A DNA stretch of 64,000 bases from Limonium bicolor (lineage: Eukaryota > Streptophyta > Magnoliopsida > Caryophyllales > Plumbaginaceae), in contig CM041783.1 of assembly GCA_023374045.1 (NCBI GenBank), positions 91,051,298 to 91,115,297 of the forward strand, given 5' to 3'. Of the stretch, positions 13,722 through 37,636 are shown one piece after another. The stretch's first letter is position 1, and each line of letters begins with the position of its first letter. The notes under the pieces were generated by a model, which did no database searches, was not told the origin of the DNA, and saw nothing but the letters and a program-made list of their open reading frames with translations. The position numbers were made by a program, and so were the translations under genes.

Positions 13722-15030
13722 GGTGTTGTTTTGACCAAAAACTTTGTTTAAGGATAGGAAATGATATGTAATGATGATATAAGGTTGTTTAAGACATGTT
13801 TGGTGGGTAACAATGATAATTAAGTGGGTGAATAAGTATAAGTTATGAGGAGAAGTGATTCACTTAAGATTAAGTTTATAAGAACTTAAGAGGTGTTAGG
13901 TGGGAATCATTATGGGTTAAGTAAGTTAGATAAGTTGAATTAAGTTAAGTGATTAACAACATAAAACTGAATGAATGTTTTAGGGCTTGAGTATGTGGAC
14001 TCCGGAAGAGAGTAAGCAACCGAACAACCAACGGTGAACGGTACAGTTCTTCTTGTGACCTGCTTGCTAACGAGGTGTCCCTCGGCTTGTGTGCTGTTTG
14101 TTCTTGTGTGCTCACTAAACAAGATAAAGCATGCAACCGGAATATTATGTTTATTGTATTGTTGTGTGATGTTTGAGAACTAACACAATATACCGTGAGA
14201 ACTTACTAACCAACGTTTAGTAAGGAATTGAGTGAGACTAAGGAACGCTCCCTAATATGAGTTTGATGTAAACCGAAAGAGGTTAACCAACAAACATGGT
14301 CTTGAGACTACTACTAACTGGAACTTGAGTGAGGAAACCCGGGACTGACTCCGGTCATGCATGCTAAGGAAAAGGGGTCGGTATCTATAGCAGATCCGAC
14401 TTCCGCTTAAGGACTAGTCCTCAGACTAGTAGCCTTGGGTCGGTTGGCCGGCTCGGCTACATTGGACATCCAGTCCAAGGTAGGTGGCTTTAAGATGGCA
14501 TGGGGGGATCAAGCCTACATCCCCAACAATTTAAGAATGTTGTTTATTGCCGGTAAGTGTCCTGCTGCTGGCTAGGGTTAACCAAGCCCTACAAAAATAA
14601 ACAACGAACTAAGGGCTAACCTGTTCCCAATGAGAGAACGGTTGGCATACATAAGGTAAGGTTAAGATAAGTTGCAACCATTCCTCTTGAAGGATGGTTT
14701 GTATTACTAAGACTAAGGTAAGCTACATCCACTCCTTTTTAAAGGATGGTTGTTTCTAAGATTAAGATAAGACTAAGATTGAGGTGAGATAAGGATGGAC
14801 TAAGATTAAGAGGAAATATAACTTAAGGAGTTAAATAATTAACTCTCTAATTAAGGGAACACATTTAAGTCGTTCATTGTGTGTGAACTTCGATTGTTCA
14901 ATTTGGTTTGTTGTTTACTGCACTTACTATTATGTTATGCATCTAATCAACCTCCATGCTATCGACAATTAGTCATCGTAGCCACGTTAGCTTGGGGGCC
15001 ATGAGAGGATCGTACCAGCATTCGTGCTGA

Positions 15031-15043
15031 CCCCCTTTGGGGG
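15031..15043 (+). promoter_or_regulatory. Conserved LTR hairpin, A 3' LTR
   Basis: Second copy of the ccccc-ttt-ggggg hairpin with following ctgttttt run. Confidence 0.5.
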
Positions 15044-15400
15044 CTGTTTTTACTACACAGGTGAACGTCAGGAGGCGGCCGTTGCGAGAGTAAGAAGGGG
15101 TACAAGCGTTACGGGTTAAGTGTGGCCTACGAGTTGTGCATGTACACTCGTATGGCAATTTGAGTTTAGTGGGATGTATAGGATGTGAGGGGATTGTGAG
15201 AAGGATATGTATTTGGTTAAGATTTGTATGTACTAATGTTCGGTATATTCTGTCAGTCAGACCGTGGCAAGGTCCTGGAGTGTAATGAATTCCGCTGTGA
15301 CATGTATATATATATGTTGTTAAGTTGTGAGACCACATTTGGATTGAGATGGGGTGTTACATTACCAAAGAAAACCAAGCTTGAAAACAAGTCAAAACAC

Positions 15401-15434
15401 AAAATGTGCTTTAAGGAGTCTTAAAGCACATTTT
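15401..15434. promoter_or_regulatory. 34-base LTR dyad, B 5' LTR
   Basis: Perfect inverted repeat: 15-base arms aaaatgtgctttaag and cttaaagcacatttt with gagt between. The same 34 bases recur at 30358-30391 in the 3' LTR and with small changes at 19705-19738 in solo LTR D. Confidence 0.75.
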
Positions 15435-17478
15435 TGAAAAATTGTCTTGTAAATGGGTTTTGAGTGGCTAAGTGGCCATCATTACCCTTTAATCAACATG
15501 TGTACTACTTAGTATCACATTAGGAATTCTAAATCAATGGGAAATCAAAAATTTCACAGTTATGTGCCTTGTTTAGTGAATAGTAACCAAATAGTGCTGG
15601 TTTAAGTCATTAGTCAAAGTAAGTCAACTAAATGGTCAACAAAGACCACAAAATACCTCATTGAATCAAGGGGGCCGATTTTTAAGTGTGACTCACCACA
15701 CTTATCTAGTTAAGTAAAGAAGAAAGCAAAAGTAAGTAAATTTACTATTCACCTTTTAACATAAATATCTTACCTTAGTAGACCTCTCTCCTCGCCTCTT
15801 CATTCTCCTCTCTCACCACCGATTCCCCTTGCTTTCTCCCTTCTCCATTGACGTGAAGAACAGCCCCCATGTAAGTTCCATCTTCCTTTGATTACTACTT
15901 ACTCATTTTAGCTCCAAAACCAAAACAAATTACATATTCTTCTTAGTTAGCTCAAGCTCTTCCTTTCTATCTTTCCAAAACTTCAAGAGCTCCATTTTGG
16001 TGCCAAGGCAAACCACCATTAGAGGAGGAAACTCAAGTTTGGAGGGTTCATTGGCTTCTCCATTCTCTTAAGGTAAAGAATATGTAAGAAAATCTAGGTT
16101 TCCATCATTTTTCTCCATAACCGAAAATCTATACTCATGGGGCTCCATTTTTATGCCTTGTTCTAGCTTGTTTCCTATTCTCCAAGGGCAAGAGGAGGTC
16201 CTTCTTGATTCATATCCAAGCTTGTCTTGAGAAACCAAGGTAAAACAATCAATTTAATACCTTAAAACACATTTTTAACCTAGGTTTTATTCCTTAAGGT
16301 TAGTGTGTTGTTTAGTACTCATTGGAGTCATTGAATGTTGGTTAGAACATTGGCAAGGAGAACTTGATTGGTGACCGAGATTGAGCAAGGAAAAACCTAA
16401 GGAAGAAAGTTTGTGAAGCTTGAAAAAGAACAAGGTAAATGTCTTACCTTAAGGTGTTTAATGCATTAAGGGATGGAATTTAGATATGTGATGAGTTTGG
16501 TGTAGAGTTTACATTGGGAAAGAGTTATAAAAACCCAGGAGAAACAATGACTATACTTGTGAACTTGTGATTAAGGAGCAAATGAGAAAAAGGAGATAGT
16601 TTAAGGATGTCAAGGTGAATTATAAGAACATTTAAATTGCAATGGGAGCCTTGTTGTGTGTATTTGCAGGTCAAAGGCTATATATATTAAGGAAATTCAG
16701 TGTTTAAGATTTATGCATTTAAGGGCCTAAGTGCCAAGCAATTTAAGTTTATGCACTATATTGTGATGTAGTGTAATTTTGGTGTATGATGTGTGTTAAG
16801 GAGGTTTAATGAGAGTTTGAATGTTGATAGCTATTTGATGGTGAAGAACTAAATGCTTTGGTGTAATAATATACTAGAGAACCCATGGCAAAATTTAGTG
16901 AAGAACCTAAGTGTTTAAGGTGTGTGAGGAGATTTTATGACTAAGGAAACACTAAGAAACTTTAGGAGTAGTTTTGATGAAAAAAGGGCGAGTTTAAGGT
17001 GTTTTATGAGTTAGAATGACTTAGGCACCATCATGGAGGATTTAGGGATCAAATGAATGTCTTGGGATATACTTGTGTAGTTAGGACTTAGGCAAATATT
17101 GGTAAACAAGTAGGAAGGAAAATAATGTGTTGGTAGAAGGAGGCATAAACTTGTGTAGGAACCTTAAGTAGTTGCATAAAGGAATTTTAGATGGTGAAAG
17201 ATGCTTGGGAGATGATGTTATAGTGGTGAGGAAGCATTTGGCATAGTGGTTATAATAGGTATGAACCACCACTTAGAAAACTTAGTGAAAAACATTACAA
17301 GTGTTGGCATTATTATAAGGAAAATGCATAATGACTAAGGTGGATATTGGTGAGTGATTTAATGAGTTTAGTGGAGGACTTAAGGAGTGTTTGAAGTGCC
17401 CAAATGAGGATAGAACATACTAGGATATATGAGGTGAAGTTTGAATTCGAATGGGAATTTAGAAACAAAGTTCTGGAG

Positions 17479-17866
17479 ACGACCAACCTTAGGGACCGGA
17501 CCTGTAAGGTCGGTCGAGCTCAGTTTACACTACCGGAAAGATTTTCGGGAATGGACTGACCATGGGGACCGGACTTGCAAGGTCGGTCGGGCTTGTATTT
17601 TGTGTACGAATTGAGTCTCTGGAATGGACCGACCTTGGGACCAAACTTACAAGGTCGGTCATGCCTAGAATTTTGTACGGGAATTGGTCTCTGGAATCGA
17701 CCAAACTTGGGACCGACCTTGGCAAGGTCGGTCGGGCTTAAATTTCCCACGGGGAAAACTCTCGGGAATGGACCGACCTTGGGGACCGGACTTGCAAGGT
17801 CGGTCGGGGTAAAATTTTCAAATGGTAATATGTCCTGGAATGGACCGTCGGTAAGGTCGGTCGAGC
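17479..17866. repeat. Palindromic ACCGAC/GTCGGT array, B 5' LTR
   Basis: About six units of ~65 bases, each with a gaccgacctt arm facing an aaggtcggtc arm. The core RCCGAC equals the plant dehydration-responsive/C-repeat element bound by DREB/CBF proteins. A second copy of the array is in the 3' LTR. Whether these sites work as enhancers cannot be told here. Confidence 0.75.
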
Positions 17867-20800
17867 CAAAAAAAAAAGAAATTTTAAATTCTAAAGATGT
17901 TAACTGATAATAAGGTATGCCATTGGTAGGGTAATAATGATTAGGAACCTAAGAACCTAAGGAATTAAGTTAAGTTAAGTATAAACCTTAAGTTTAAAGT
18001 TAAGTTTATAAGGTTAAGTGGTACAGACTTAAGAGGGTATTGAATGAGAATCTTTAGGGACTAAGTGAGTTAAGTAAGGTGCAAATAACTAATGGCCTAA
18101 AGATGAATGAATGTTTTAGGTTTGTGAATTGGGACCCTGGAGAAGGTTAAACAAACAACAAACGACGGTGAACGGTATAGTCTTTCTTGTGACATGCTTG
18201 CTAACGAGGTGTCCCTCGGCTTGTGTGCTACCTGTTTGTTTGATATGACTAAGACAAGATAAAGCATGCAACCGGATATTAATGTTCTCGTTGTGTATGT
18301 GTTTTCTTTACACTAACCCACAAGGCTTAAGGATAGCTACTAACTAAGCTTGATACTTATTGAGTTAAGGAGAGGATTTGTACATTGGTGATTGTTGGTT
18401 AATACCCGTCAAGGTTTAACTAACACATGATATTTAAGACTTTCACTAACCGTAACTTGGGGTGGGAGTGAGGAATCCGGAATGGTACCGGCACATGTGT
18501 ATTGGGGGAGGTCGGTATCTGAATCAGATCCGACTTCCAGATAAGACTTGTCGTTGGACTTGTCGCCTAGGGTCGACAAACTGACCCAACCACCCGGACT
18601 ACTGTTTGAGGTGGGAGGCACATTAAGGATGGCGTGGGGGGATCTAGCCTACATCCCCAACAAATTAAGAAAGGTTGCTTATCGCTGGTAAGTGCACTGC
18701 TGCCGGCAAGGGTTAACCAAGCTCTACAAAAATAAGCAACCAATTAAGGGCTAACCAGTCTAATAGTAGAACGGTTGGCAACTATAAGATTAAGGAGAAT
18801 GTGGATATAAGGAGTTAAGAACTAACTTACTTGTTAAGGGAACGCCTGAGTCGTTCATTTGTATGTGAGCTACTTATGCTCATTGTGGTTTGTTGTTTTA
18901 ATGCATTTCATATTATGATTGTGATGCTAATCAACTTCCATGCTATCGAAAATTAGTCGTCGTAGCCCCGTTAGCTTGGGGGCCATGAGAGGGTCGTACC
19001 AGCATTCGTGCTGACCCCCTTTGGGGGCTGTTTTTACACTTGCAGGTAAGCGGCCCATGAAGTCACACCACGAGAGTAGGAGCGGGTAGCCCTAGGTGGG
19101 ACTTTATTTTGAGTACGGGTAGCGCCTATGCACCCATCTGTTGATAGTTGAACTTGAGAAATATTATGTGGTTTTGGAGATACTTAAACTTGGTTGGTGT
19201 ATGTATTTTGGATTTACGGTTGTAAATATTTAAGAAACGGTATTTCTTGTTGATTAGACCGTGGCAAGGTCCTTGAAATACCCCAAACCTTGATATGTGG
19301 TTTAAATATCAAACTATGGTATGTAAAGGCTAAAAAGTGCCTTAGAAACATCAGTGAACAATTTAGACCATAGTAAATGCAATAAAGCATTAAGACACAG
19401 TTTGAGCAAAAACATGCTCTAAGCTATGAGTGAACTTGGTTAGGACCCAAAGAGCCTACCAAGACTTAATAATATTCAATTATGATTTAATAAGGCTAAA
19501 TAAGTCCTTAGGAAACCTTGGTGGGCAGTTAAACCAAATAAAACACAAGAAAATACCTTAAAGTCAATATGAGCAAAAATGTGCTCTAAGCTTGGGATAA
19601 ATTTGTATACGACCGAATGGTCATACCTATACCTTATTTATATGTTAATGAACATATTAAATCAATTACTAAAGAAAACCAAGCTTGAAAACAAGTTAAA
19701 ACACAAAATGTGCTTTAAGGAGTCTTAAAGTACGTTTTTGAAAAATTGTCTTGTAAATGAGTTTCGAGTGGCTAAATGTCCATCATTACTCTTAAATATA
19801 CATGTGTACTATATAGTATCACATTTGGAAGTCTATATCAATGGGAAATCAAAAATTTCACTTCTATGTGCCTTGTTTTGTGAATAGTGATTTTTATAAG
19901 CTAGTTTGTAACATATAATGTTATAAGTAATTAAATTGACCAACAAAGACTATAATACCCTTATGTAGTAAAGGGGGCCGGTTTTCTTAAGTGTGGTGAC
20001 TCACCACTCACTTGTTAACTTGTTAAAGAAATAAAGATGACTAATATAGTTACTATTTGCTTTATAAACACAAATATCTTCTAAAAAGCAAACTTATCTC
20101 ATTTCTCTCATTCCTTCTCCATTTCACACGGTTCGAACTTCTTCTTCCCCTCTTCTTCTTGTTCTCTCTCGGTAATACAGAACCACCACCATGGAAGTCC
20201 ACCTTTGAACTCTTGTAAAACCTAGCTCACTTAACCAAATCAAAAACAAACACCACCATTCTCTTCCTCTCATCAAGCTCTTCATTCCTATCTTCTCAAA
20301 ATTTCAAGATCACCATTTCGGTGCCATGGAGTTCCACCATTGATGGAGCTTGAGCTTGTCTTTCCACATATTATTGATCTCCTTTGCTCCTAGGTAAGGA
20401 ATCTCAAAGAAAATCAAGTTTCCTCCATGGTTTGTGTGCCGAAAATATTCATTGATGGAGCTCCTTGTGCTTTGTTCTAGCTCCATTTGAATCTTTCAAG
20501 GACTAGGTGGAGTCCTCTCTTCATAGATATTCAAACACCCTTCAAAGATAAAGGTAAAACAACTACATTAATGTTTTGAAATAATGTAAACCTAGGGTTT
20601 ACAATGAGATGGAGCTTAAAGCTTGAATACTCATTATGTTGTTTGTATAATGTTTAGTAGTTGGCAAGGAACCAAATGCCTTACCGGTTTTGTAAGGAAA
20701 CAAGAAAGAAATTTGGGAGGAAAAAGAGGTAAATATGCTATCTTAATGTGGTTTAAATGCCTTAGGAAAATGAGCTTGATTTGCTTAATAAAATACCTAA

Positions 20801-21665
20801 GGAGCCAATGGTGAATGAGCTAGTAAAATGCTCTCAAGGAGTTTATTAAGGGCATATGTATTGGGTGTATTTGCAGGTCAAAGGCATTACTTATGTGGGA
20901 AATTCAGTGTTTAAGGTTTATGCAATTTAAGGGCCTAAGAGCCATGTTTTTAAGGGCCTAAGTGCCAAGCAATTTAAGTTATGCACTATATTGTGAGTAG
21001 TGCTTAATGTGTGAAGTTTGTGTGTAAAATGTTCTTGATGGATTTTAGGTGTTCTTGAATGAAATAAGGTAAAACCTAAGTGTTTGGATGTGAGTATAAC
21101 AAGAGAAGCTATGGCCAAATTTGGGAAATGTGTAAGAAGTTCTAAGTGTTTTAATGAGTTTTGGTGAACTAGGAAGTGTTAAGGTGAATAAATGTTTACT
21201 TGAGAAGAAAACATGTGTTAAGGTGATTTAGAGTGATGCAAGGATTTTGGTGTTATCTTGGAAGTTCTAGGAATTCAAGTGTGTTTTGAGGATGTATTTA
21301 GGTCTTGGAGGAGTTTGATTAAGGTTTAGGTAATGTTGATATCCAAGGAATAAGTGATGATTAGGTAAGATGTGAAAAAGGAGGTTTTTAGTAAAAAAGA
21401 AGTTGAGAGAAGATGTTAAGTGTAGAGGAAACACCTTGGTGTAGTGGTCATTATTGGTGAACTACCACTTATAAACCTTAAGGAGAAAATCCCAAGTGCT
21501 AGGAACTTTGTAAGAAGTTTGTGAATGATAAAATGGTTTTGGTGAGTGATTTAAAGAGTTTAGCACATGGATAAAGGTGTGTTTGAAGTGCCCAAATGAG
21601 GTTAGGGTATATATATGGGGTGAAGTTTGGAGTTGAATGTAAAAAGGAAAACAAAGATCTGGGGC

Positions 21666-21850
21666 AGACCGGACTTGCGACCGGACTTGCAAGTTCGGTC
21701 GGGCCCAGTTTACCCTGCGGGAATTAGTTTCGGAATGGACCGGACATAGGACCGGACTTACAAGGTCATCGGAGTAGAAAATTTGTGACGGAAATGTGTT
21801 CTGGAATCGACCGGACTTGGGTAAGTCCGGTCGGCAAGTCCGGTCGGACC
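21666..21850. repeat. Palindromic ACCGGAC array, D
   Basis: Units of gaccggactt and aagtccggtc type with facing arms, at the LTR position where B has ACCGAC and A has TCCGAAC units. Confidence 0.65.
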
Positions 21851-23347
21851 AAAAACATGGTTTAAGGTTTTGGAATGATATGTAGTGATGGGGATTGATT
21901 AGTAATGATGTTATAAAGTTGTTAAGGACTTGTTAGGTGAGTTTTAATGCCAATTAAGTGGGTTAAAAGTTGTATTTAAAACGTGAGAGTAAAACAAGTT
22001 AAAAATGTTAAGTTATGTAACTAAGTTAACGGGGAGAAGTTATAAGCATTAGACATTAAATAATCATGTTACCCCGATATTAATAAAAGTACATGTAATG
22101 TTGTCAGTTGTTCGAGAATTGCTCGAGGAACATAAGTGGACGTGGTAAAGTGGACTCCGGTGACAGGTATGGTTTTCTTGCAACCTGTGTCCTACCGGAT
22201 TACACCGGCTTGTATGCCAATGTGTTTTTCTGTATGTTTGCCACGTTGTAAGTTAAAACATGTAATGAGTTTACAACAATTCCTATATGTGACGTGTCTA
22301 GTTCCGATACCATTTAACCTCGGAAGTGTTAACCTTAGTTAACTGAGTCTAGGATCACATGAGAGTTTGGTATTCGGATTAAATGACCCGAACCATGGGA
22401 CGTTCTAACCACGGCTATGCGTGTGTTAATTGTGTGATATGTGTATGTGAATGTAGGGATCTCCCTTGTGTGTTTAACCCAGTTGTAATACTGTATGGTG
22501 TGTAGATGTGATAGACTCCATAGTGGGGTTCTAACTAATATCTAAAAGTAAGTATGTACTACAGTGGTGAGGAATCCGGTTTGGCCGGTCGCGCGTTGTT
22601 TTGGGAGTGGGTATCCTTCTTAGCCTTACCCTTCTCTTTGTTATGGTTGTTTCCCTCACGGGTTATGATCTCCCATTAGCTTATTCCAAAGCTTAGCTAT
22701 TCTGACTTATGATCGGTTTAGGGGGAACATGTGTTTGTGTGGGTGTTCGGGCCTCCAAACCCGAACCGCCTTAACTTAAGTTAATCGTCCGACTATTAGG
22801 ACGGTAATGAGTGTTGTTGCTATTGTATAACGAGCTTATCATGAGACTGGCAACATTCTCTAGGCTCACCAGTGTATAAACAATGTTTGGGTCGGTTCCT
22901 AAGAGAACCATTCCCGTTATGTTATTGTATTTTGTGTGATGCAATATCTATTGCGGTATTATGTTGTGCACGTGGAAACATGCAAAGTGTTGTTAGGTGT
23001 TGTAGTGTATGTTATATGTTGTATAATGTGGAGTGTGTGGATCATGGATATGATTCCCAGTTTGTGATAAGAGGCGTTTAAGGATAACCCGATTTAAGGG
23101 TAAGTGTCTCTGTTAAGGAAGTTCCATTAGAGGAGGAACACTCTAGGGATATTGAATACCTTGAGTGACTTATTAAGTAAGGATGTATTATCCGTTTGTT
23201 GAGCCCATTGAGGTGAAATGTTAAGTGTTTGTGTTTACTGTTACATGCATGATTTAAATATAATCAACCGCATGCTAAGACGACAATTAGTTGTGCGTGG
23301 CCCGGTAGCATGTGGGCTGTGGGATTACCATACCAGCAAGGTGCTGA

Positions 23348-23360
23348 GCCCCTTGGGGGC
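23348..23360 (+). promoter_or_regulatory. Conserved LTR hairpin, D
   Basis: gcccc-ttg-ggggc, the D version of the hairpin found in A, B and H, followed by a pyrimidine run and ttcag. Confidence 0.45.
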
Positions 23361-23745
23361 CACCCTTTCTCTTCTTTTCCTATTTCAGGTACAGAGAGCT
23401 GGAAGCCGTTCGAGAGTAGGACGGGGTAGACATTGTACATGGGTAAACATTTAAGTGTATATATACAGTAGGTGTAGTAAGACCGAAATTGTTGTCGGCA
23501 CCAGTTTATTAATACTCGGTATAGTTGGAAGGTGTATGTTGTTGTTGTTAATGGAAAGGGATAGTAATGTGTAGTCGCTCGGGAATTTAGCCCATCAAAC
23601 CGGTACAATGTATGTGTATTAGCCTTGTTAGCCACGTGGGTGGCTAACGGCGTGTAACACCAATGAGTTAAGTAATGTGATGAGGTTGTTTTTCCGCTGC
23701 AGTTTATTGTAAGTGTGTTAATGTTGGATGGGGTGTTACAGTCTT

Positions 23746-23829
23746 GGTGTTAGATTATTTCCGCTGCGGTGTTTATGTATTATTTGTTAAGTTGCGATAA
23801 CCACGATTGGCTTAGGACGGGGTGTTACA
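23746..23829 (+). mobile_element. Element B 5' LTR, right end
   Basis: The last 84 bases of B's 5' LTR, matching 34201-34284, ending ggtgttaca next to the primer site. It completes the LTR after the D insertion. Confidence 0.92.
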
Positions 23830-23834
23830 AAAAG

Positions 23835-23846
23835 TGGTATCAGAGC
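23835..23846 (+). other. Element B primer-binding site
   Basis: tggtatcagagc five bases after the LTR end, complement of the initiator tRNA-Met 3' end, as in element A. Confidence 0.92.
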
Positions 23847-24051
23847 GTAGTTACACTCTGATCAAGAAATACCGGACATAAGTAACCACCGAGTTAGGTT
23901 ATGAGTTAAGATATAAGTAATGGGTTAAGGGTATGAGAAGTTAGTGTGAGTAGAGTCAGATGACCACTATTAAGTGTGGATCGTCTTTACCGTCTACTGA
24001 CGTTATAAATTCGTTAGCCGAACAGTGGTGGATACGAATCTAATGTGAGTT

Positions 24052-24697
24052 ATGCTTATTCAGATGTTAGGAAGGAGAGGCCAAGGCCGTGGTAGAGGCG
24101 ACGAGACTGAGATATCGGGAGGGCAGACGATCGCAGAAATCGTAGCTGCCGCTTTAGGGCACATGGGCTATCAGCCTGGTGTGGGTGCACCACCTCCACC
24201 GCCACAACCCCGGGAACCAAATTGGGTGAAGAGCTTATCGGACCTTCGACCCGTATCATTTCAAGAGGAGACTGACCCCGACCAAGCTTGAGGCGTACAT
24301 CTTTGAGCTAGAGACCGCCTTCGAGACCCTTGACGTCCCTGCTGGGATCAAGGTGCGCCTAGCTGTGTTCTACCTGAAGGGGGCAGCAGGCGATTGGTGG
24401 AAGCTGGTGAGGGCCGAGCATGTGGCCAATCCAGACTTCGGCTGGGACCAGTACACAACACTGCTACGAGCAAAGTACTATCCCGCCCATGTCCAGACGA
24501 AGAAGCGCTTGCAGTTGGATGCGCTTAAGCAGACGGACAAGATGACGGTAGACGAGTATTACTCGGAGTTTACCGCCTTGCTTCGTCTTCTACCGGGTCT
24601 TAGGTATTCAGACCAGATACTGGTGGACCGCTTCTATGGCGGGCTTAGCCATCGACTCTGCTACGGCATGGGGCCGACGAGCTATACTACCTTGCAG
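24052..24697 (+). pseudogene. B gag, exon-like part 1
   Basis: Gag is the structural protein that packages the element's RNA. The first ATG gives an N-terminus with the basic run RRGQGRGRGD and a proline-rich stretch (GAPPPPPQPRE). A one-step frame change near 24240 leads into the retrotransposon gag domain, where KLEAYIFELE, RLAVFYLKGAAGDWW, and the helix ending DRFYGGLSHRLCY are recognisable; YLKGAAGDWW matches the gag-family signature in which W-W follows a small acidic patch. The domain is interrupted at 24698 by an AT-rich segment that looks like an intron. The frame change shows that this copy is defective. Confidence 0.85.
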
Positions 24698-24779
24698 GTA
24701 ATAAGAATAAGTAAGATATAATTAAGTGAATGAGATTTAGTTTGTGAGAAATAAGAGGAACTAATACTTTGGAAAGCAG
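24698..24779 (+). other. Candidate intron 1 in B gag (82 bases)
   Basis: Starts gtaataag after cttgcag and ends ggaaagcag. It is AT-rich, contains stops in the gag frame, has a ctaat branch-like word at 24761, and its length is not a multiple of three. Removing it joins ...TTLQ to ECYHAAAKVE in phase 0 with no stop. This fits a spliceosomal intron; no RNA evidence is available here. Confidence 0.6.
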
Positions 24780-25032
24780 GAGTGCTATCATGCCGCTGCT
24801 AAGGTTGAGATAACCGTCCAGCTGAGGGACGAGGACAATGCTAAGAGGAAGAGTTCCGGTAAGAGCACGGAGAACCAAGGGCAAGGAGGGTACAAGAAAC
24901 AGAAGTACCAGCCTCAAGCCCAGAAAAATCAGAACCAAAAAGGGAAGGAGGAAAAGGAGAAGGCTCTAGATGAGCCACTGAAGCTGACTTATGCTTCTGC
25001 TGCTAAGCCCCTGTGCTCCAGGGCGCCAAAGG
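24780..25032 (+). pseudogene. B gag, exon-like part 2
   Basis: An open stretch of ~84 codons in one frame, reading ECYHAAAKVEITVQLRDED and then a basic, glutamine-rich linker with KKQKYQPQAQ and a KGKEEKEK patch. Composition and position fit the low-complexity linker between the gag domain and the zinc knuckle. It ends at CSRAPKG, where the second intron-like segment begins. Confidence 0.75.
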
Positions 25033-25108
25033 GTAAGGAAATACATTTTGAGTAAATAAGAATGATTGACAACATTGAGACACAATCACTGATGCAATGC
25101 GTAATCAG
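25033..25108 (+). other. Candidate intron 2 in B gag (76 bases)
   Basis: gtaaggaa donor and gtaatcag acceptor; AT-rich, with an in-frame stop after 24 bases and a length not divisible by three. Removal gives a phase-1 junction that restores the frame from SRAPKG into TETGKETGGGYQRHYYCQRC. Confidence 0.6.
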
Positions 25109-25446
25109 GTACTGAGACTGGAAAGGAAACCGGTGGTGGCTACCAACGACACTACTATTGCCAGAGGTGCAAGGGGGACCACCCGGAGTTGACTGTAGGG
25201 GGAATAAGGTGGAGTGTAATTTCTGTGGTGTACTCGGGCACCGGGCATATGAGTGCTACGGGAACCCGGAGAGTAAGAACTACAGACCCAGTTTCAAGGT
25301 TAAGACTAAGGCCGATCAGGGAGCTGGACCTGACAAACATAAGGGGGCACAACAAGCGGCGAACAGAATCCACGGATAGCCAGAAGTCGGACCCACACTA
25401 CACATGGTGGACCGGGACGATGGGCCTGAACCCTCATCAAGGCCAG
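25109..25446 (+). pseudogene. B gag, exon-like part 3 with zinc knuckle
   Basis: Reads HYYCQRCKGDHP, then after a one-base frame change VDCRGNKVECNFCGVLGHRAYECYG. CNFCGVLGHRAYEC is a CX2CX4HX4C zinc knuckle, the nucleic-acid-binding motif at the end of gag; the preceding CQRC...H...C is a second metal-binding-like cluster known in chromovirus gags. A TAG at 25377-25379 interrupts a frame that otherwise continues through HMVDRDDGPEPSSRP to 25446, where a ccag/gtaccg donor-like word begins the interval holding the AlkB frame. Confidence 0.8.
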
Positions 25447-26457
25447 GTACCGCTATAACCACTTAGTAATAAAATTTCCTGCTTACCGCATTACATGCAT
25501 GCTTAGTGAATAAATAAGATAAGACTAGAATTTAAGGGAGATATGACCTATTACCACCTTTGGAAACTTCAACATTTGCTATCCATGCCTTCAAAACCTA
25601 ACCCGGATACACCGACATGAAACCCGAGACTTTCCAACCGGACAAGGTCAGGTCATCCGCCCAGGTATGATATTATTAAGGGGATACCTGACACCAGAAG
25701 CGCAAATAGCCATCATCAGGAAATGCAGTCAACTAGGAATGGGACCGGGAGGTTTTTATACACCGAAGTACCCAGGGGGAGCAAGAATGAAGCTTAAGAT
25801 GATGAGCTTAGGCAAGGATTGGAATCCGTATGCCAAGACCTACCAAACCACGAGGATACAAGATGGAGTCTCACCACTGGGAATACCCGAAGAGTTCCAT
25901 CCGGTAAATATACAAGTCATGGAAGTCGCTCAGCAGTTGGAAGCTAAACCGATTCCAGACATACAAGTGGACATCTGTATTGTAAACTTCTATGGGAAAG
26001 ACGGGCGACTTGGACTACATCAGGACAAGGACGAGACAACGGAGTCTCGCGAATGAGGGATACCCATAGTGTCTTGGTCCATTGGAGATGATGCAAAATT
26101 TTTATACGGCGAGCAGAAGCGTGCGGACCGTGCTAATAAGTTAATACTTAAGTCAGGGGATGTATTAGTTATGGGAGGAGAATTAAGGATGTTATACCAT
26201 GGGATTAAGAGAATCAAGCTGATTATAGCACCGTCAGTAGTAATCAATGCGACGCATATGAGACCAGGGAGATTAAACCTAACTTTTAGACAATATTAGC
26301 TATGTAACGTTTTGGGTATGAGATAAGGAATGAAATGTAAGGAAGAAGCACATGTTGTAAAAAGGATGGTTATTAATAAAATAATAGTTTTGTTCATATC
26401 AATTGTTACGACTCTTGTTATACCATCATTACTCATGAAGCTTGTGAATACAATTAG
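25447..26457 (+). other. Candidate intron 3 enclosing the AlkB frame
   Basis: Donor-like ag/gtaccg at 25447 and acceptor-like caattag/gtc ending at 26457. Both sides are AT-rich, with taataaaa and aataaataagataag words like those in candidate introns 1 and 2. Joining the sides in phase 1, as in intron 2, continues the gag frame into the protease frame (LTEAQADASGTILTGTFPINGIEA) without a stop. The chance of frame agreement alone is about one in three, so the claim needs RNA data. The AlkB frame would be expressed only from unspliced or differently spliced RNA. Confidence 0.4.
25547..26299 (+). pseudogene. AlkB-like 2OG-Fe(II) dioxygenase (ALKBH1 type)
   Basis: AlkB enzymes remove methyl groups from DNA or RNA bases using Fe(II) and 2-oxoglutarate. 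One frame is open from 25547, except for a single TGA at 26054-26056, to a TAG at 26297. Visible in order: FNICYP; RPGMILLRGYLT with an ATG at 25667; LGMGPGGFYTP and LKMMSLGKDWNP, both characteristic of the ALKBH1 group; VNFYGKDGRLGLHQDKDE with the HxD iron ligands; then VSWSIGDDAKFLYG, LKSGDVLVMGG, the distal iron His in YHGI (26198-26200), and RLNLTFRQY with the RxxxxxR 2OG pair (26270 and 26288). Length (~250 codons) covers a whole domain. It lies between gag and protease, inside a retrotransposon, is AT-richer than the neighbouring pol, and lacks an upstream ATG for its first 40 codons. Family assignment is strong; activity of this copy is excluded by the stop unless read through. Confidence 0.88.
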
Positions 26458-26850
26458 GTCATGGACTCGGTACGGAAGGTGCGCTTTGCATACTTACAGA
26501 GGCACAGGCCGACGCCAGCGGTACTATCCTCACCGGCACCTTTCCAATTAATGGGATTGAGGCATTAGTTCTCTTTGACTCAGGGCCTCGCATACCTTTG
26601 TCTCGCATCTTCCGCGAGAAGGTTGGGGCTAGACGCTGATGAGCTACCCAACTTCACGTACGCTCCCGTCTAAGAGAAGGTTCGTTGCACTCGCTACTAC
26701 CGAGAAGCCATTGTCAGAATTAAGGGGGAAAGACTTTCCAGTCAGTTTATTGAGTTTAGGGAGTTGGGATTTGATGTTATCTTCGGGGATGAACTGGTTG
26801 AGCGCACAAGGGTCGTATCCTCTGCGCCGCGCATAGACTGCTGCTCAGGT
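26458..26850 (+). pseudogene. B aspartic protease, decayed
   Basis: The retroelement protease cleaves the gag-pol polyprotein. TGTFPINGIEALVLFDSG matches the start of the chromovirus protease, with the catalytic DSG (usually DSGAT) at about 26577; the following residues are scrambled (PRIPLSR in place of ATHSFIS). After frame changes, pieces such as SGMNWLSAQG near 26785 correspond to the family's ILGMDWLS. Several frame shifts make it non-functional. Confidence 0.75.
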
Positions 26851-26979
26851 CCATCTGGGTAACAATATCATACCAACAGAGTCCTAGAGAGCCTTCGACA
26901 AGATCATCACCGCTATGGCATGTTAAGGAGTTGAGGAGAAGGAAGAAGTGTACCTCTGCTATGTACAGGACATAGAGAG

Positions 26980-27606
26980 AGACCCCGAGTTCGACCCTGA
27001 CTTACAGTAGTGTCGGAGTTCCCTAACCTATTTCCACGGGAAACTGCCCGCATGCCCCACTCAGAGGTAGAGTTCACCATCGAGCTGCTACCTGTACCGG
27101 ACCGATAACCAAGGCACCATACCGTATGGCTCCGGCAAAATATTGATTAAAGGAACAATTGAAGGACTTGTTAGACAAGGGTTTCTAAGACCCCTGTATC
27201 ACCATGGGAGCGCCATCCTCTTCGTGAAAAAAGGATGGTAGTCTCCACCTCTGCATCGACTATAGAGAGTTGAATGGTAGTGACTGTAGAATATACCAAC
27301 TACCCCACATTGACGATCTGTTCGATCAGTTGAAGGGCAGCTGTGTTTTCCAAGATTGACCTCAGATCGGGTATCATCAGATAGCCATCAAGGAGGCAGA
27401 TATTGGAGACGGCATTCCGACACGATACGGCCACGATATTTTATAGTGTGCCGTTCGGTTGTCGAACTCACTGGTGAAGTTTATGGACCTGATGAACCGC
27501 TTGTTCCGAGAGCACTGGACAAGTTGGTTGTGTGTTTATTGATGATATTTTGATATACTCGAATTGAAGACTGAGCATGGGAACCGCTGAGGAGGTTCAG
27601 AGATAC
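26980..27606 (+). pseudogene. B reverse transcriptase, decayed
   Basis: The polymerase that copies element RNA. From ~27008 the frame reads VSEFPNLFPRET...VEFTIELLPVP, the region before the palm; then YRMAPAKY, a piece of [56 protein letters not shown] and finally, after another frame change, FIDDILIYS around 27535-27560, which holds the catalytic DD pair. These follow the Ty3/gypsy RT order exactly, but at least four frame shifts and several stops separate the pieces. Confidence 0.85.
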
Positions 27607-28428
27607 TGAGGGAGACAACTATATGCTAAGTTCTCCAAATGTGAGTTTTGGCTTGACCAGGTCTCTTTCCTAGGTCATGTCATCTCAGATGCTGGGATCT
27701 TAGTGGATCCAGCAAAGATTGATGTCGTGCGTACTTGGCTGAGACCAAAGACGGTTACCGACATTCGGAGCTTCCTTGGCTTGGCAGGTTACTACCGGCG
27801 GTTTGTTAAAGATTTCAGCAAGGTCGCAAAGCCGATGACCAGTCTGATGAAGAAAGATGCACCGTTCTTGTGGACGGTTGACTGTGAGAGATCATTCCAG
27901 AGTTTGAAAGACTCACTGACCACTACACCGAAACTGACCATTCTAGACGGTACGGAGGGCTTTGAGGTTTACTGTGATGCATCCGGCAGAGGGCTGGGTT
28001 GCGTCCTCATGCAACATGGCAAGGTGGTGGCATATGCCTCACGCCAGTTGAAGAAACATGAGGAGAACTACCCCACACATGATTTAGAGATGGGAGCTGT
28101 AGTCTTCGCTTTGAAGATATGTCGCCATTACTTATACAGGGTCAGTGTGACGATCTACACCGATCATAAGAGCTTGAAGTATATATTCACTCAGAAGGAG
28201 TTGAATCTCAGACAAAGGAGATGGTTAGAATTTCTGAAAGACTATGACATTGACCTCCAATATAAAGAGGGGAAGGCCAATGTTGTAGCGGACGCCCTGA
28301 GTCGTCGAGCACACTCACTCCATTCACTAATCTCTTTCTCCAGCTTGGTTGATGAGGTGCGAGAGGCTCAGAGGACAGATGAGGTATATGAGAGAGGTCA
28401 GACAGAAGCTGGCAGATGGTACCTTTGA
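27607..28428 (+). pseudogene. B RT connection and RNase H
   Basis: A single open frame of ~270 codons, the best-kept part of pol with the integrase. It begins [20 protein letters not shown] (end of RT), continues [27 protein letters not shown], and enters RNase H with [48 protein letters not shown] and ADALSRR. The catalytic Asp of YCDAS, Glu of DLEM and Asp of TDHKS are present. RNase H removes the RNA strand after copying. The frame is lost after [15 protein letters not shown], where a shift leads into the integrase frame. Motif wording is that of the Tekay/Del chromoviruses. Confidence 0.9.
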
Positions 28429-29783
28429 GAGTCAGAAAATATGACTCCGGACTTCACAACGATCTGATCAGACTTAAGGGCCGGTTATGCATACCACGGT
28501 CAACGGATCTAAAAGACTGTATACTTAGGGAGGGAATCACATTGTCTTCAGTTTCCATCCATCCGGGAGCCTCTAAGATGTATAAAGACATGAAAAGATA
28601 CTTCTGGTGGCGGGGATGGATGAACAGATGTTACGAGTTCATCTTGAGGTGTCTCACTTGCCAGAAGGTGAAATTTGAGCACCGACGACCGGGCGGAATG
28701 GTACAGTCGATGCCAGTTCCGGAGTGGAAGTTCCATGATATCTCGATGGACTTTGTAGTTGGACTCCCACCTGCTAGGGGAGGTCTCAACATGAATGGGT
28801 GGGGTGGATCACCTTACCAAAGTAGCCGATTCACGATGAAGGATACTTGGAAGGTGACCAAATTAGCTGAGTTGTTTGAGAGAGAAATCATGAGACATCA
28901 CGGGATACCGAAGACCATAGTGTCAGATAGAGATACCAGATTCCTTTCGAGGTATTGGAGAGCTACTAGAGAAGCGTTGGGTACAGAACTGAAGCTAAGT
29001 ACCGCGTTCCATCCTCAGACGGATGGTAAGACTGAGCGTACGATTCAGACACTCGAGGACATGCTGAGGGCATGCGCCTTAGACTTCCAGGGCAGTTGGG
29101 TTGACAAATTGCATCTGATCGAGTTTTCATACAACAACCGCTATCACGCTTCGATCAAGATGGCACCCTTTCAAGCGTTGTACGGTAGACCATGTCGTAC
29201 ACCGCTCTGCTGGGATGAGTCGAGTGAGACGGTCATTATAGGACCAGAGTACTTAGAGCAAGTTAAGGCTGAAGTTCAGCAAATCAGGGAGAACATGAAA
29301 GCTGCTCAAGATAGGCAGAAGTCGTATACTGATGTTCGACGACGACACCTGGAGTTCGCAGTGGATGACCAGGTATTTCTGCGAGTTTCACCGATGAAGG
29401 GTGTATTCAGATTTGGGCAGAAGGGTAAATTGAGCCCGAAGTTTGTTGGTCCTTATGAGATTACGGAGCGGGTGGGCCCGGTTGCTTACAGGTTGAATTT
29501 ACCTGCTGAACTGGGTAAAGTGCATGATGTTTTTCATGTTTCACAGCTAAAGAAATACATGCACAACCCCTCCCATGTGTTAGAACCTGAGAGGTTGACA
29601 TTAGAACCAAATATGAGATCCGTGGAGACTCCTCAGAGAATCTTGGATAGTAAGACTAGGGACACTCGCCATAAGTCAGTGCGACTGGTGAAGGTTCTCT
29701 GGTCTAAACAGGATGTCGAAGAGGCCACGTGGGAATTAGAGGATAAGATAAGGGCGAAGTACCCTTTTTTGTTTACCGACTAG
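28416..29783 (+). pseudogene. B integrase with chromodomain
   Basis: Open for 455 codons. Integrase joins the element DNA to the host. The N-terminal zinc-binding part reads SIHPGASKMYKDMKRYFWWRG...CLTCQKVK (the HHCC motif, first His apparently lost). The core has DISMDFVVGLP, IVSDRDTRF and the Glu following HPQTDGKTERTIQTLEDML, giving the DDE set. A ~20-residue part (GWGGSPYQSSRFT) is out of frame relative to the family's VVVDRLTK segment and is framed by two compensating shifts. The tail holds GPYEITERVGPVAYRLNLP, VFHVSQLKKY and, at residues ~408-455, VRLVKVLWSKQDVEEATWELEDKI, a chromodomain that steers insertion to heterochromatin. Ends with TAG at 29781. Confidence 0.9.
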
Positions 29784-29795
29784 ATCGTCTGTATA

Positions 29796-29830
29796 GGGTA
29801 CGAGGCGTACCCCTTTTTAAGGGGGGTAGA
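29796..29830 (+). other. Hairpin plus upstream polypurine tract, B
   Basis: gggtacg-agg-cgtaccc, a perfect 7-base-pair hairpin 12 bases after the pol stop, is followed one base later by tttttaaggggggtaga. The tract duplicates the one at 30086. Element A has the same arrangement with different hairpin arms. Confidence 0.7.
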
Positions 29831-30065
29831 GCTTCCTCGCTTTTGAGTTAGGAAACGAACATGTTTGTCGTTTGTTTGGTTATATAAAATGTGGTTTGTG
29901 TAAGTTGTGTAAGTTATTACACCTTGGTGGTAAGTTTGAGATATGTATAATACTTATGCATTGTATTTGTAGTAGACCTTTGAATCTTGAGATGTGTGAA
30001 TGAGAATATAAGATGTGGTGTTAAGAATGAGAAACTGAGTACCATGAATGATTAAGTATACGTGT
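29831..30065 (+). mobile_element. Element B 3' non-coding region
   Basis: About 235 bases between the two polypurine tracts, rich in gtttgt and tgtg words. No gene or clear repeat. Confidence 0.6.
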
Positions 30066-30102
30066 GAACTTTGGGGACAAAGTTCTTTTAAGGGGGGTAG
30101 AT
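30066..30102 (+). other. Hairpin and polypurine tract of B
   Basis: gaactttg-ggga-caaagttc hairpin followed directly by ttttaaggggggtagat and the LTR, identical to element A at 10701. Confidence 0.87.
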
Positions 30103-31563
30103 TGAAATACCCCAAACTTAGAGATGGTGTTTAAGTGATGAACTAAGATATAAGGAGGCTAAATAATGCCTTAGAAACGTTAAGAAACATTTTTAATCAA
30201 AGGAAACACCAAAAGAGCAGTTTAAGCAAAAACGTGCTCTAAGCTTGGAGAGACTTGGGTGGGCACCCAAATATCATTCTAAGACCTTAGTAATATCCTA
30301 ATGGTCTTTTTAAACCTATTACCAAAGAAAACCAAGCTTGAAAACAAGTTAAAACACAAAATGTGCTTTAAGGAGTCTTAAAGCACATTTTTGAAAAATT
30401 GTCTTGTAAATGGGTTTTGAGTGGCTAAGTGGCCATCATTACCCTTTAATCAGCATGTGTACTACTTAGTATCACATTAGGAAGTCTAAATCAATGGGAA
30501 ATAAAAAATTTCACAGTTATGTGCCTTGTTTAGTGAATAGTAACCAAATAGTGCTGGTTTAAGACATTAGTCAAAGTAAGTCAACTAAATGGTCAACAAA
30601 GACCACAAAATACCTCATTTGATCAAGGGGGCCGATTTTTAAGTGTGACTCACCACACTTATCTAGTTAAGTAAAGAAGAAAGCAAAAGTAAGTAAATTT
30701 ACTATTCACCTTTTAACATAAATATCTTACCTTAGTAGACCTCTCTCCTCCCCTCTTCATTCTCCTCTCTCACCACCGATTACCCTTGCTTTCTCCCTTC
30801 TCCATTGACGTGAAGAACAGCCCCCATGTAAGTTCCATCTTCCTTTGATTACTACTTACTCATTTTAGCTCCAAAACCAAAACAAATTACATATTCTTCT
30901 TAGTTAGCTCAAGCTCTTCCTTTCTATCTTTCCAAAACTTCAAGAGCTCCATTTTGGTGCCAAGGAAAACCGCCATAAGAGGAGGAAACTCAAGTTTGGA
31001 GGGTTCATTGGCTTCTCCATTCTCTTAAGGTAAAGAATATGTAAGAAAATCTAGGTTTCCATCATTTTTCTCCATAACCGAAAATCTATACTCAAGGGGC
31101 TCCATTTTTATGCCTTTTTCTAGCTTGTTTCCTATTATCCAAGGGCAAGAGGAGGTCCTTCTTGATTCATATCCAAGCTTGTCTTGAGAAACCAAGGTAA
31201 AACAATCAATTTAATACCTTAAAACACATTTTTAACCTAGGTTTTATTCCTTAAGGTTAGTGTTGTTTAGTACTCATTGGAGTCATTGAATGTTGGTTAG
31301 AACATTGGCAAGGAGAACTTGATTGGTGACCGAGATTGAGCAAGGAAAAACCTAAGGAAGAAAGTTTGTGAAGCTTAAAAAAGAACAAGGTAAATGTCTT
31401 ACCTTAAGGTGTTTAATGCATTAAGGGATGGAATTTAGATATGTGATGAGTTTGGTGTAGAGTTTACATTGGGAAAGAGTTATAAAAACCTAGGAGAAAC
31501 AATGACTATACTTGTGAACTTGTGATTAAGGAGCAAATGAGAAAAAGGAGATAGTTTAAGGAT

Positions 31564-31595
31564 GTCTACTAAGGTAAGATATTTATGTTAAAAGG
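31564..31595 (-). other. Templated inverted insertion in B 3' LTR
   Basis: These 32 bases are the exact reverse complement of 30709-30740 in the same LTR. They replace about 60 bases still present in the 5' LTR (16610-16675). The ends coincide with short shared words (gtc and aaagg), as expected of a strand switch during copying. Confidence 0.85.
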
Positions 31596-32395
31596 CTATA
31601 TATATTGAGGAAATTCAGTGTTTAAGATTTATGCATTTAAGGGCCTAAGTGCCAAGCAATTTAAGTTTATGCACTATATTGTGATGTAGTGTAATTTTGG
31701 TGTATGATGTGTGTTAAGGAGGTTTAATGAGAGTTTGAATGTTGATAGCTATTTGATGGTGAAGAACTAAATGCTTTGGTGTAATAATAAACTAGAGAAC
31801 CCATGGCAAAATTTAGTGAAGAACCTAAGTGTTTAAGGTGTGTGAGGAGATTTTATGACTAAGGAAGCACTAAGAAACTTTAGGAGTAGTTTTGATGAAA
31901 AAGGGGTGAGTTTAAGGTGTTTTATGAGTTAGAATGACTTAGGCACCATCATGGAGGATTTAGGGATCAAATGAATGCCTTGGGATATACTTGTGTAGTT
32001 AGGACTTAGGCAAATATTGGTAAACAAGTAGGAAGGAAAATAATGTGTTGGTAGAAGGAGGCATAAACTTGTGTAGGAACCTTAAGTAGTTGCATAAAGG
32101 AATTTAAGATGGTGAAAGATGCTTGGGAGATGATGTTATAGTGGTGAGGAAGCATTTGGCATAGTGGTTATAATAGGTATGAACCACCACTTAGAAAACT
32201 TAGTGAAAAACATTACAAGTGTTGGCATTATTATAAGGAAAATGCATAATGACTAAGGTGGATATTGGTGAGTGATTTAATGAGTTTAGTGGAGGACTTA
32301 AGGAGTGTTTGAAGTGCCCAAATGAGGATAGAACATACTAGGATATATGAGATGAAGTTTGGAGTCGAATGAGAATTTAGAAACAAAGTTCTGGA

Positions 32396-32788
32396 GCCGA
32401 CCGACCTTAGACCGGACCTGTAAGGTCGGTCGAGCTCAGTTTACACTACCGGAAAGAGTTTCTGAAATGGACCGACCTTGGGGGACCGGACTTGCAAGGT
32501 TGGTCGGGCTTGTATTTTGTGTACGAAATGAGTCTTTGGAATGGACCGACCTTGGGACCGGACTTACAAGGTCGGTCATGCCTAGAATTTTGTACAGGAA
32601 TTGGTCTCTGGAATCGATCGAACTTGGGACCAACCTTGGCAAGGTCGGTCGGGCTTAAATTTCCCACAGGGAAAACTCTCGGGAATGGACCGACCTTGGG
32701 GACTGGACTTGCAAGGTCGGTCGGGGTAAAATTTTCAAGCGGTAATATGTCCTGGAATGGACCGACCTTGAGTAAGGTCGGTCGAGCC
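32396..32788. repeat. Palindromic ACCGAC/GTCGGT array, B 3' LTR
   Basis: Second copy of the array at 17479. I count about eleven RCCGAC cores over both strands. Units facing each other as gaccgacctt / aaggtcggtc. The spurious open frames across it are a by-product of the repeats. Confidence 0.75.
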
Positions 32789-34284
32789 AAAAACAAAAAA
32801 AAAAGAAATTTTAAATTCTAAAGATGTTAACTGATAATAAGGTATGCCATTGGTAGGGTAATAATGATTAGGAACCTAAGAACCTAAGGAATTAAGTTAA
32901 GTTAAGTATAAACCTTAAGTTTAAAGTTAAGTTTATAAGGTTAAGTGGTACAGACTTAAGAGGGTATTGAATGGGAATCTTTAGGGACTAAGTGAGTTAA
33001 GTAAGGTGCAAATAACTAATGGCCTAAAGATGAATGAATGTTTTAGGTTTGTGAATTGGGACCCTGGAGAAGGTTAAACAAACGACAGATGACGGTGAAC
33101 GGTACAGTCTTTCTTGTGACCTGCTTGCTAATGAGGTGTCCCTCGGCTTGTGTGCTACCTGTTTGTTTGATATGACTAAGACAAGATAAAGCATGCAACC
33201 GGATATTAATGTTCTCGTTGTGTATGTGTTTTCTTTACACTAACCCACGAGGCTTAAGGATAACTACTAACTAAGCTTGATACTTATTGAGTTAAGGAGA
33301 GGATTTGTACATTGGTGATTGTTGGTTAATACCCGTTAAGGTTTAACTAACACATGATATTTAAGACTTTCACTAACCGTAACTTGGGGTGGGAGTGAGG
33401 AATCCGGAATGGTACCGGCACATGTGTATTGGGGGAGGTCGGTATCTGAATCAGATCCGACTTCCAGATAAGACTTGTCGTTGGACTCGTCGCCTAGGGT
33501 CGACAAACTGACCCAACCACCCGGACTACTGTTTGAGGTGGGAGGCACATTAAGGATGGCGTGGGGGGATCAAGCCTACATCCCCTACAAATTAAGAAAG
33601 GTTGCTTATCGCTGGTAAGTGCACTGCTGCCGGCAAGGGTTAACCAAGCACTACAAAAATAAGCAACCGATTAAGGGCTAACCAGTCTAATAGTAGAACG
33701 GTTAGCGACTATAAGATTAAGGAGAATGTGGATATAAGGAGTTAAGAACTAACTCACTTGTTAAGGGAACGCCTGAGTCGTTCATTTGTATGTGAGCTAC
33801 TTATGCTCATTGTGGTTTGTTGTTTTATTGCATTTCATATTATGATTGTGATGCTAATCAACTTCCATGCTATCGACAATTAGTCGTCGTAGCCCCGTTA
33901 GCTTGGGGGCCACGAGAGGGTCGTACCAGCATTTGTGCTGACCCCCTTTGGGGGCTGTTTTTACACTTGCAGGTAAGCGGCCCATGAAGTCACACCACGA
34001 GAGTAGGAGCAGGTAGCCCTAGGTGGGACTTTATTTTGAGTACGGGTAGCGCCTGTGCACCCGTCTGTTGATAGTTGAACTTGAGAAATATTATGTGGTT
34101 TTGGAGATACTTAAACTCGGTTGGTGTATGTATTTTGGATTTACGGTTGTAAATATTTAAGAAACGGTATTTCTTGTTGATTAGACCGTGGCAAGGTCCT
34201 GGTGTTAGATTATTTCCGCAGCGATGTTTATGTATTATTTGTTAAGTTGCGATAACCACGATTGGCTTAGGACGAGGTGTTACA

Positions 34285-34297
34285 ATTGGGGCTCACA
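34285..34297 (+). mobile_element. Element E 5' LTR end (13 bases)
   Basis: attggggctcaca equals the last bases of E's 3' LTR (atcagggctcaca, ending 40541) and of solo LTR F. The remaining 5' LTR lies beyond element B and off the window. Confidence 0.75.
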
Positions 34298-37300: not shown

Positions 37301-37630
37301 AATACTGGGGGTAATTGTTGGTTCCAACAATTGCAATAACAACACCGATTGAAAGCCCAAGAGCTGAAAGCCCAAGAGCTGAAAGCCCTAGAGCATAAAT
37401 CCAAAAGTTCAAACCCTCTCATGAACTTCAAAAACCCACAACAAACGTCCTCATGCCCCTCATAAGCCCTAACCCCTCTCTACATTTATTCAGGCCCGTC
37501 CTAAGCCCAACCTCCACATCATATAACCTCTAGGCCCGTCATAAGCCCTAACCCTTGTCTACATTCATTTAGGCCCATGACAAGACCTAACACATATCCA
37601 CATCATACACTTAACTCACCTCCACATAGA
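34318..37630 (+). mobile_element. Element E leader and internal region, non-coding
   Basis: About 3.3 kb without any recognisable gag or pol. The part 34430-34620 matches, in reverse complement, 43200-43430 in element K (catcatatgagagc...gagggttcat...cacatccccttaat), so it is a conserved Tat leader. From about 34850 to 35480 ggccca words are very frequent. An A-rich patch lies at 35810-35850. Near 37236 and 37301 two polypurine-like words are each followed by a palindrome. E is therefore a non-autonomous Tat derivative or an internally replaced one. Confidence 0.6.
37236..37332 (+). repeat. Two polypurine-plus-palindrome modules in E
   Basis: aatactaggggcaatcgatc followed by gttccgatcaat, and 70 bases on, aatactgggggtaattgttg followed by gttccaacaatt. 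Both are palindromic (the second is a perfect 20-base dyad with a 2-base centre, 37313-37332). Both resemble the true tract ggggggcaatttgttat at 38779. Confidence 0.6.
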
Positions 37631-37636
37631 ACCATC

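Follow-up and report, generated by a model that had tools for sequence, protein, structure and literature searches.

The 64,000-nucleotide stretch of the Limonium bicolor genome analyzed here (contig CM041783.1, positions 91,051,298 to 91,115,297; hereafter the window) is part of the 136 Mb contig C8 in a genome of 2.92 Gb, and it contains a long terminal repeat (LTR) retrotransposon at 15361-34284 with an AlkB-type demethylase exon between gag and pol. It is likely that an intron-bearing, chromovirus-type LTR retrotransposon lineage captured a plant ALKBH1 sequence before its subfamilies split, and that this sequence serves as an alternative exon, giving a Gag-AlkB protein that would demethylate RNA or cDNA in the particle.

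The original prediction, made from the window sequence, had placed AlkB motifs between a gag zinc knuckle (25220-25262) and the protease (PR) motif DSG (26577), and had proposed the capture of an ALKBH1-like gene by a lineage of elements. All of the named motifs could be found in the plus-strand translation of 25547-26299 (GPGGFY, LKMMSLGKDW, NFY..LGLHQDKDE, SGDVLVMGG, YHGI, and RLNLTFR), and the Pfam model PF13532 matches above its cut-off in two halves (25667-26056, E 4.3e-16; 26057-26299, E 1.8e-21). The halves are separated by a single in-frame TGA (26054-26056) that had gone unmentioned. Both flanking landmarks were placed correctly, as the knuckle lies within a tblastn match at 25173-25289 and DSG is present at 26577. 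The view of AlkB as a domain of gag-pol had to be given up, however: the AlkB exon is in a frame different from those of gag and pol, and it sits in a gag-pol intron that is skipped in natural spliced copies, which together rule out translation in frame with gag-pol. The element in the window is composed of the following features, where ^ denotes a splice boundary:

15361..19272, plus strand: main part of the left LTR, 98.5% identical (1251 bp) to 30318-31566 and 97.3% identical (2612 bp) to 31591-34200
23741..23829, plus strand: 3′ end of the left LTR (...GGTGTTACA), 96% identical to 34196-34285
23835..23846, plus strand: primer binding site (PBS) TGGTATCAGAGC, read from the sequence
24064..24697, plus strand: gag exon 1 with a probable start codon and the capsid part (PF03732), 3′ end ...TTGCAG^GTAATA
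24698..24779, plus strand: intron 1, 82 nt, GT...AG, precisely missing from the relatives L032 and L050
24780..25032, plus strand: gag exon 2, where relatives read ECYHAA...
25033..25108, plus strand: predicted intron 2, GT...AG, missing from L050
25109..25446, plus strand: gag exon 3 with the CCHC zinc knuckle, donor CCAG^GTACCG, phase 1
25447..25562, plus strand: intron 3 up to the AlkB acceptor; retention adds six gag codons, followed by the stop TAG
25563..26299, plus strand: AlkB exon, plant ALKBH1-like 2-oxoglutarate/Fe(II) dioxygenase, with its own stop TAG at 26297-26299
26300..26457, plus strand: remainder of the gag-pol intron, 3′ end ...CAATTAG^, the pol acceptor
26458..29783, plus strand: pol exon with protease, reverse transcriptase (RT), RNase H, integrase and a weak chromodomain match, damaged
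30090..30102, plus strand: polypurine-like stretch AAGGGGGGTAGAT, 5′ of the right LTR, read from the sequence
30103..34284, plus strand: right LTR, TG...CA, 4182 bp, from sequence comparison

The LTRs, the PBS, gag, and the order protease, RT, RNase H, integrase identify a Ty3/gypsy LTR retrotransposon. Gag (PF03732), RNase H, integrase, and the weak chromodomain were detected via Pfam, whereas protease and RT were detected by tblastn, with a match of about 40% identity that is broken across two frames. The chromodomain (PF00385) scores 22.3 bits against a cut-off of 25.1 and covers residues 406-447 of a 455-aa open reading frame (ORF) at 28416-29783. The label Tekay rests on this architecture; the long LTR and the PBS, which we take to be of the initiator tRNA-Met type, appear compatible with it.

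The genome was searched with a degenerate 23-base pattern for GLHQDKDE, which resulted in 16,627 exact matches (8,402 + 8,225), while the reversed pattern used as a control gave none. In a first look, 38,326 PF13532 candidates were found in the genome, and all 150 that were scored exceed the Pfam cut-off. Assuming one LTR plus internal unit of about 10.4 kb per match, a size taken from the spacing of tandem copies, the motif-bearing family would make up about 6% of the genome as a rough upper estimate. For a closer analysis, 6-kb stretches around 20 matches were used, these being the first listed minus three neighbours in one tandem run. Gag was found in all 20 copies, a zinc-knuckle match in 19 and protease/RT in 19, in the order gag, knuckle, AlkB, protease, RT. 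AlkB lies between gag and protease in 19 of the 20 (tblastn), the remaining copy having no PR/RT match. Many elements thus carry AlkB at the same place, a point that the original prediction had put up for checking, and a one-off passenger restricted to this copy is ruled out by the motif matches, the scored PF13532 candidates and the sample. On contig C1, tandem runs of AlkB elements with a spacing of about 10.0-10.6 kb are located at about 1.43-1.46, 4.33-4.35, 7.39-7.42, and 497.44-497.47 Mb, which suggests unequal recombination between shared LTRs.

By sequence and fold, the closest relative of the element AlkB is plant ALKBH1 (OsALKBH1; PDB 5xoi, 5xeg), and no chain named ALKBH5 was among the 23 sequences at E <= 1 in the search with the element AlkB. 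In an unrooted tree, assembled without deliberate inclusion of gymnosperm, fern or moss sequences and without the ALKBH1 gene of this genome, the element rows form a clade of their own beside 40 host-type rows (support 100/100). Annotated plant ALKBH1C/D proteins differ from the element AlkB in a longer N-terminal part. Subfamilies A to D, as named in the present analysis, are recovered alike in trees of AlkB, protease, and gag (built from rows that have no more than one stop; in the gag tree, D is a single row and the support for C is just 79/79), and L046 represents an additional, more distant subfamily. This agreement indicates that the capture of AlkB preceded the subfamily split and that AlkB has since been passed on together with the element, in support of the proposed capture of an ALKBH1-like gene. 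In two protein searches with 1189 and 2079 matches, the 120 best listed for each included four element-like proteins from outside this genome (P0001-P0004). One of them, P0002 on a 26.6 kb contig, has an element-like AlkB with 63% identity, and its ORF extends upstream via a GPFDICYP start like the border of the AlkB exon, so that it is perhaps the same exon in another plant. P0121 from Artemisia annua (478 aa) scores 364 bits against the element AlkB profile, at the top of the named proteins among the matches listed. A scan of IMG/VR with the element AlkB alignment resulted in 389 pattern stretches and no relative.

In intact relatives, gag is encoded in three pieces in different frames, and joining them at the introns restores a single frame. 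Intron 1 has the borders CAG^GTAA...YAG^GARTGYTAYCAYGC and a length of 71-116 nt in 19 of the 20 copies, compared to 0 in L032; intron 2 has the borders AAGG^GTAA...AG^, and the exon 3 donor reads C(A/C)AG^GTA. This phase-1 donor has two acceptors. One of them, AG^GAA, opens the AlkB exon directly 5′ of a host-like FDIC/FNIC motif and is retained in 18 of the 20 copies; the other, AG^G, opens pol. Joining exon 3 to AlkB would be in frame in 16 copies and out of frame in two (two not evaluable), and joining it to pol would be in frame in 15 and out of frame in one (four not evaluable). Over all 29 copies the connection to AlkB is in frame in 24, out of frame in two and not evaluated in three, with a phase anchor that was chosen after the result of a farther one had been seen (13 in frame, 7 out, 9 not evaluated); the earlier anchor misplaced landmarks, e.g., the pol acceptor in subfamily D. 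If intron 3 is retained, gag stops after 3-6 extra codons in 16 copies and after 10-27 in the other four.

From these sites, it is predicted that one donor chooses between Gag, Gag-AlkB, and Gag-Pol. Retention of intron 3 would lead to a nearby stop and to plain Gag, and joining of exon 3 to the AlkB acceptor in the same phase would give a Gag-AlkB fusion that ends at the AlkB stop. The unspliced, AlkB-carrying RNA would be the genome that gets copied. AlkB might instead be made as a separate, unfused protein from an internal start or an intron-3-retaining transcript, like ORF2 of the AlkB-bearing Ty3/gypsy element Gypsy_Pa_2799 from the orchid Phalaenopsis (Alvarado-Marchena et al., 2022; PMC9289625, excerpt), where AlkB is a separate ORF. 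Its own stop and its frame, which differs from those of gag and pol, agree with this, but a separate ORF has no need of an acceptor that is kept in 18 of 20 copies and in phase in 16 of 18, and we regard it as unlikely.

The Gag-AlkB fusion may enter the virus-like particle, which contains single-stranded RNA and cDNA. There, AlkB would act on the single-stranded RNA or cDNA of the element, stripping adenine of N-methyl groups and perhaps also clearing other alkyl lesions, and this could protect the element from methyl-dependent host restriction or relieve blocks to reverse transcription. We infer this place of action and this benefit. The element probably uses AlkB on its own genetic material, because evolution kept AlkB intact. 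Alternatively, AlkB could be a nuclear enzyme that counters silencing at the chromatin of the host or of the element (R-loops, N6-methyladenine (6mA)), instead of acting on packaged RNA or cDNA. Rice ALKBH1, a 6mA demethylase on single-stranded DNA in vitro, is described as nuclear; 6mA at R-loops rises when it is lost, and the protein itself hinders PRC2 binding (PMC10469495, excerpt). As the predicted fusion to Gag favours the particle, a nuclear role is considered rather doubtful.

Splicing of the element was examined using natural copies in the genome. A 27-base pattern across the junction of exon 3 and pol has 32 genome matches, 27 with CCAGG and 5 with CAAGG, while the control has none. 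Four CCAGG loci (L049-L052) have the exact junction and no AlkB motif within their 3 kb, and 20 further CCAGG places have it as well, with exon 3 upstream. The exact junction was therefore present in 24 of 24 checked places from subfamilies A, B, and C. L050 is without introns 1, 2, and 3 and has an open stretch of 782 aa, cut by the locus end, with Pfam matches to gag, protease, and RT. L049 seemingly lacks all three introns too, but is frameshifted, and L051 and L052 lack the AlkB-containing intron only. Furthermore, L032 (C1:491649-497669, minus strand) is precisely without gag intron 1 while intron 2 and the AlkB intron are retained, and it looks like a natural copy of a partly spliced RNA. 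A search for homologues of the spliced gag piece resulted in 949 candidates, none of them at E <= 1e-10. The simplest reading of the exact junctions is that they are retro-copies of spliced RNA and that the cell splices the element; as judged from these copies, AlkB is shown to lie in an intron of the Gag-Pol message. Chance deletion could appeal to L053, one of the five places of the first check and the one CAAGG locus examined, which is a false match because it is an unspliced copy with AlkB that matches via a small change near the acceptor. With 24 of 24 exact junctions at GT/AG sites in three diverged subfamilies, and three introns missing together in L050, chance deletion is very improbable and was rejected.

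Selection was analyzed by pairwise dN/dS (nonsynonymous to synonymous substitution rates) on the single-match sequences of the 20 motif-sampled copies, a set free of AlkB-score bias except for the motif itself (14 AlkB, 14 gag, 15 PR, and 13 RT). At dS 0.7-3, the median dN/dS is 0.127 for AlkB (73 pairs), 0.135 for gag (54), 0.134 for PR (53) and 0.022 for RT (3 pairs; 55 others saturated). At dS 0.3-0.7, the medians are 0.37 (4 pairs), 0.08 (8), 0.57 (11), and 0.05 (7), and at dS 0.05-0.3 they are 0.17 (8 pairs), 0.09 (2), 0.24 (10), and 0.06 (12), respectively. The constraint on AlkB thus resembles that on gag and PR and is weaker than that on RT. Among 24 copies, the cofactor residues (the HxD...H and RxxxxxR motifs together with N and Y) are retained in the following numbers: N 22, Y 22, H 23, D 24, H 24, R 24, R 24, where the retention of the first H and of D is partly due to the sampling, as both fall inside the sampling motif. 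Together, these comparisons show AlkB codons under purifying selection with kept cofactor residues, in line with the original prediction. The neutral decay of AlkB beside a selected gag-pol, which it had considered as the opposite outcome, was not observed. Single-match and stop-free sequences were counted in 8 of 20 copies for AlkB, 11 for gag, 9 for PR, and 9 for RT, so by this count AlkB decays after insertion like the other parts, yet is constrained while the lineage replicates. That AlkB is a functionless neutral passenger amplified with the element, for which the stops and frameshifts in many AlkB copies, including that of the window, could be cited, is extremely improbable given the similar decay in gag, PR, and RT and the equal dN/dS of AlkB, gag, and PR at dS 0.7-3.

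Several points weigh against a functional Gag-AlkB. The fusion is predicted, with the support from spliced copies covering the junction of exon 3 and pol, and the substrate, RNA or cDNA, is not readable from the sequence. The window's own copy is dead, as it has the stop in AlkB, has lost the AlkB acceptor (AG mutated to TG) and has its protease-RT match split over two frames. In the sample, the AlkB acceptor AG is missing in 2 of 20 copies and exon 3 is out of phase with AlkB in 2 of 18 evaluable copies, and all 20 copies stem from the initial 2.7 Mb of contig C1. The 24 spliced copies may represent fewer than 24 splicing events, since some are near-identical or 9.2 kb apart and could be descendants of one another. 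Pairwise dN/dS values are non-independent and dS is often saturated, the few AlkB pairs at dS 0.3-0.7 (4 pairs) have a median of 0.37, and the rows L001-L008 of a separate dN/dS set were chosen by AlkB score, which lowers AlkB dN.

The original prediction knew of no comparable element. This did not hold for AlkB-bearing gypsy elements as such, since Gypsy_Pa_2799 is already published (PMC9289625, excerpt), but clade, paralogue, place, and arrangement differ. According to the same excerpt, a screen of 121 angiosperm genomes found the AlkB domain in two Phalaenopsis species only, and m6A (N6-methyladenosine) demethylase activity was shown in vitro for the Gypsy_Pa_2799 AlkB. Both are Ty3/gypsy elements that are abundant in their host and carry a host-derived AlkB (2-oxoglutarate-dependent dioxygenase, PF13532) with the cofactor residues. 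Gypsy_Pa_2799 belongs to the Ogre/Tat clade, has 25 kb, a tRNA-Arg-type PBS, and a single gag-pol ORF, and its ALKBH5-like AlkB forms the C-terminal part of an additional ORF2 of 565 aa (PMC9289625, excerpt). In contrast, the Limonium element is putatively chromodomain-type, has about 10.4 kb per LTR plus internal unit, and has a gag split by introns and an ALKBH1-like AlkB exon between gag and protease. Its PBS is presumably of the Met type. The Limonium element does not belong to the Gypsy_Pa_2799 family, as its AlkB is neither ALKBH5-like nor a separate ORF beside a single gag-pol and its PBS is not of the tRNA-Arg type.

AlkB domains are also carried in the replicase polyproteins of plant RNA viruses, which are likewise parasites with an AlkB of their own, whereas that of the Limonium element is located at the branch point of Gag and Gag-Pol. 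Gag/Gag-Pol output is regulated by RNA splicing in Ogre, in EVADE with its short-GAG splicing and in BARE, as is predicted for the Limonium element, and the excerpts of these sources describe neither a captured enzyme as an alternative exon nor introns in an element of the Tekay type (PMC12786077, PMC6317226). Neither an ALKBH1-type capture nor an AlkB-bearing element of the Tekay type could be found in open-licence PubMed Central among the matches listed, and the same is true of enzymes that serve as an alternative exon of gag-pol; none of these was found in the excerpts of PMC11963269, PMC6317226, PMC7264820, and PMC12786077 either. Together with the differences from the orchid element, this argues for an independent capture and a new arrangement. 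It is conceivable, and proposed here tentatively, that a three-way splice switch sets the Gag/Gag-AlkB/Gag-Pol ratio and packages a Gag-fused ALKBH1-type demethylase that clears methyl marks or RT-blocking alkyl lesions from RNA and cDNA, in a very abundant element independent of the orchid case.

If this is true, a retroelement packages a nucleic-acid demethylase of its own, and the splicing arrangement between gag and pol is a possible way to ration an accessory enzyme. Capture of AlkB by plant LTR retrotransposons is indicated to have occurred at least two times, in different element clades and with different ALKBH paralogues, which argues that base methylation is a real barrier to plant retrotransposition. 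According to a review, RNA of plant LTR elements that bears m6A becomes sequestered in stress granules, and the host ALKBH9B releases ONSEN RNA (PMC12786077, excerpt). That the enzyme is of the ALKBH1 type suggests single-stranded DNA or RNA as its target, beyond m6A on mRNA alone.

The left LTR of the window copy is interrupted by other LTR-type sequence, both upstream of 15361 and at 19273-23740. At 15360, such a sequence, ending ...GTGTTACA, adjoins the left LTR, and the insert at 19273-23740 is related LTR-type sequence with stretches 78-91% alike. Judging from the identity of 97.3-98.5% between the left and the right LTR, the insertion is young, and at a commonly used plant rate this divergence corresponds to an age in the order of a million years. 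Elsewhere in the window, two stretches of about 3.4 kb (2086-5462 and 11888-15361) are 98% alike and represent nested LTR elements, to which an inverted pair with 89% identity (4-2096 and 10736-12843) also belongs. In addition, tandem repeats of about 94 bp (53875-55374) and of 30 bp (37594-37969) are present.
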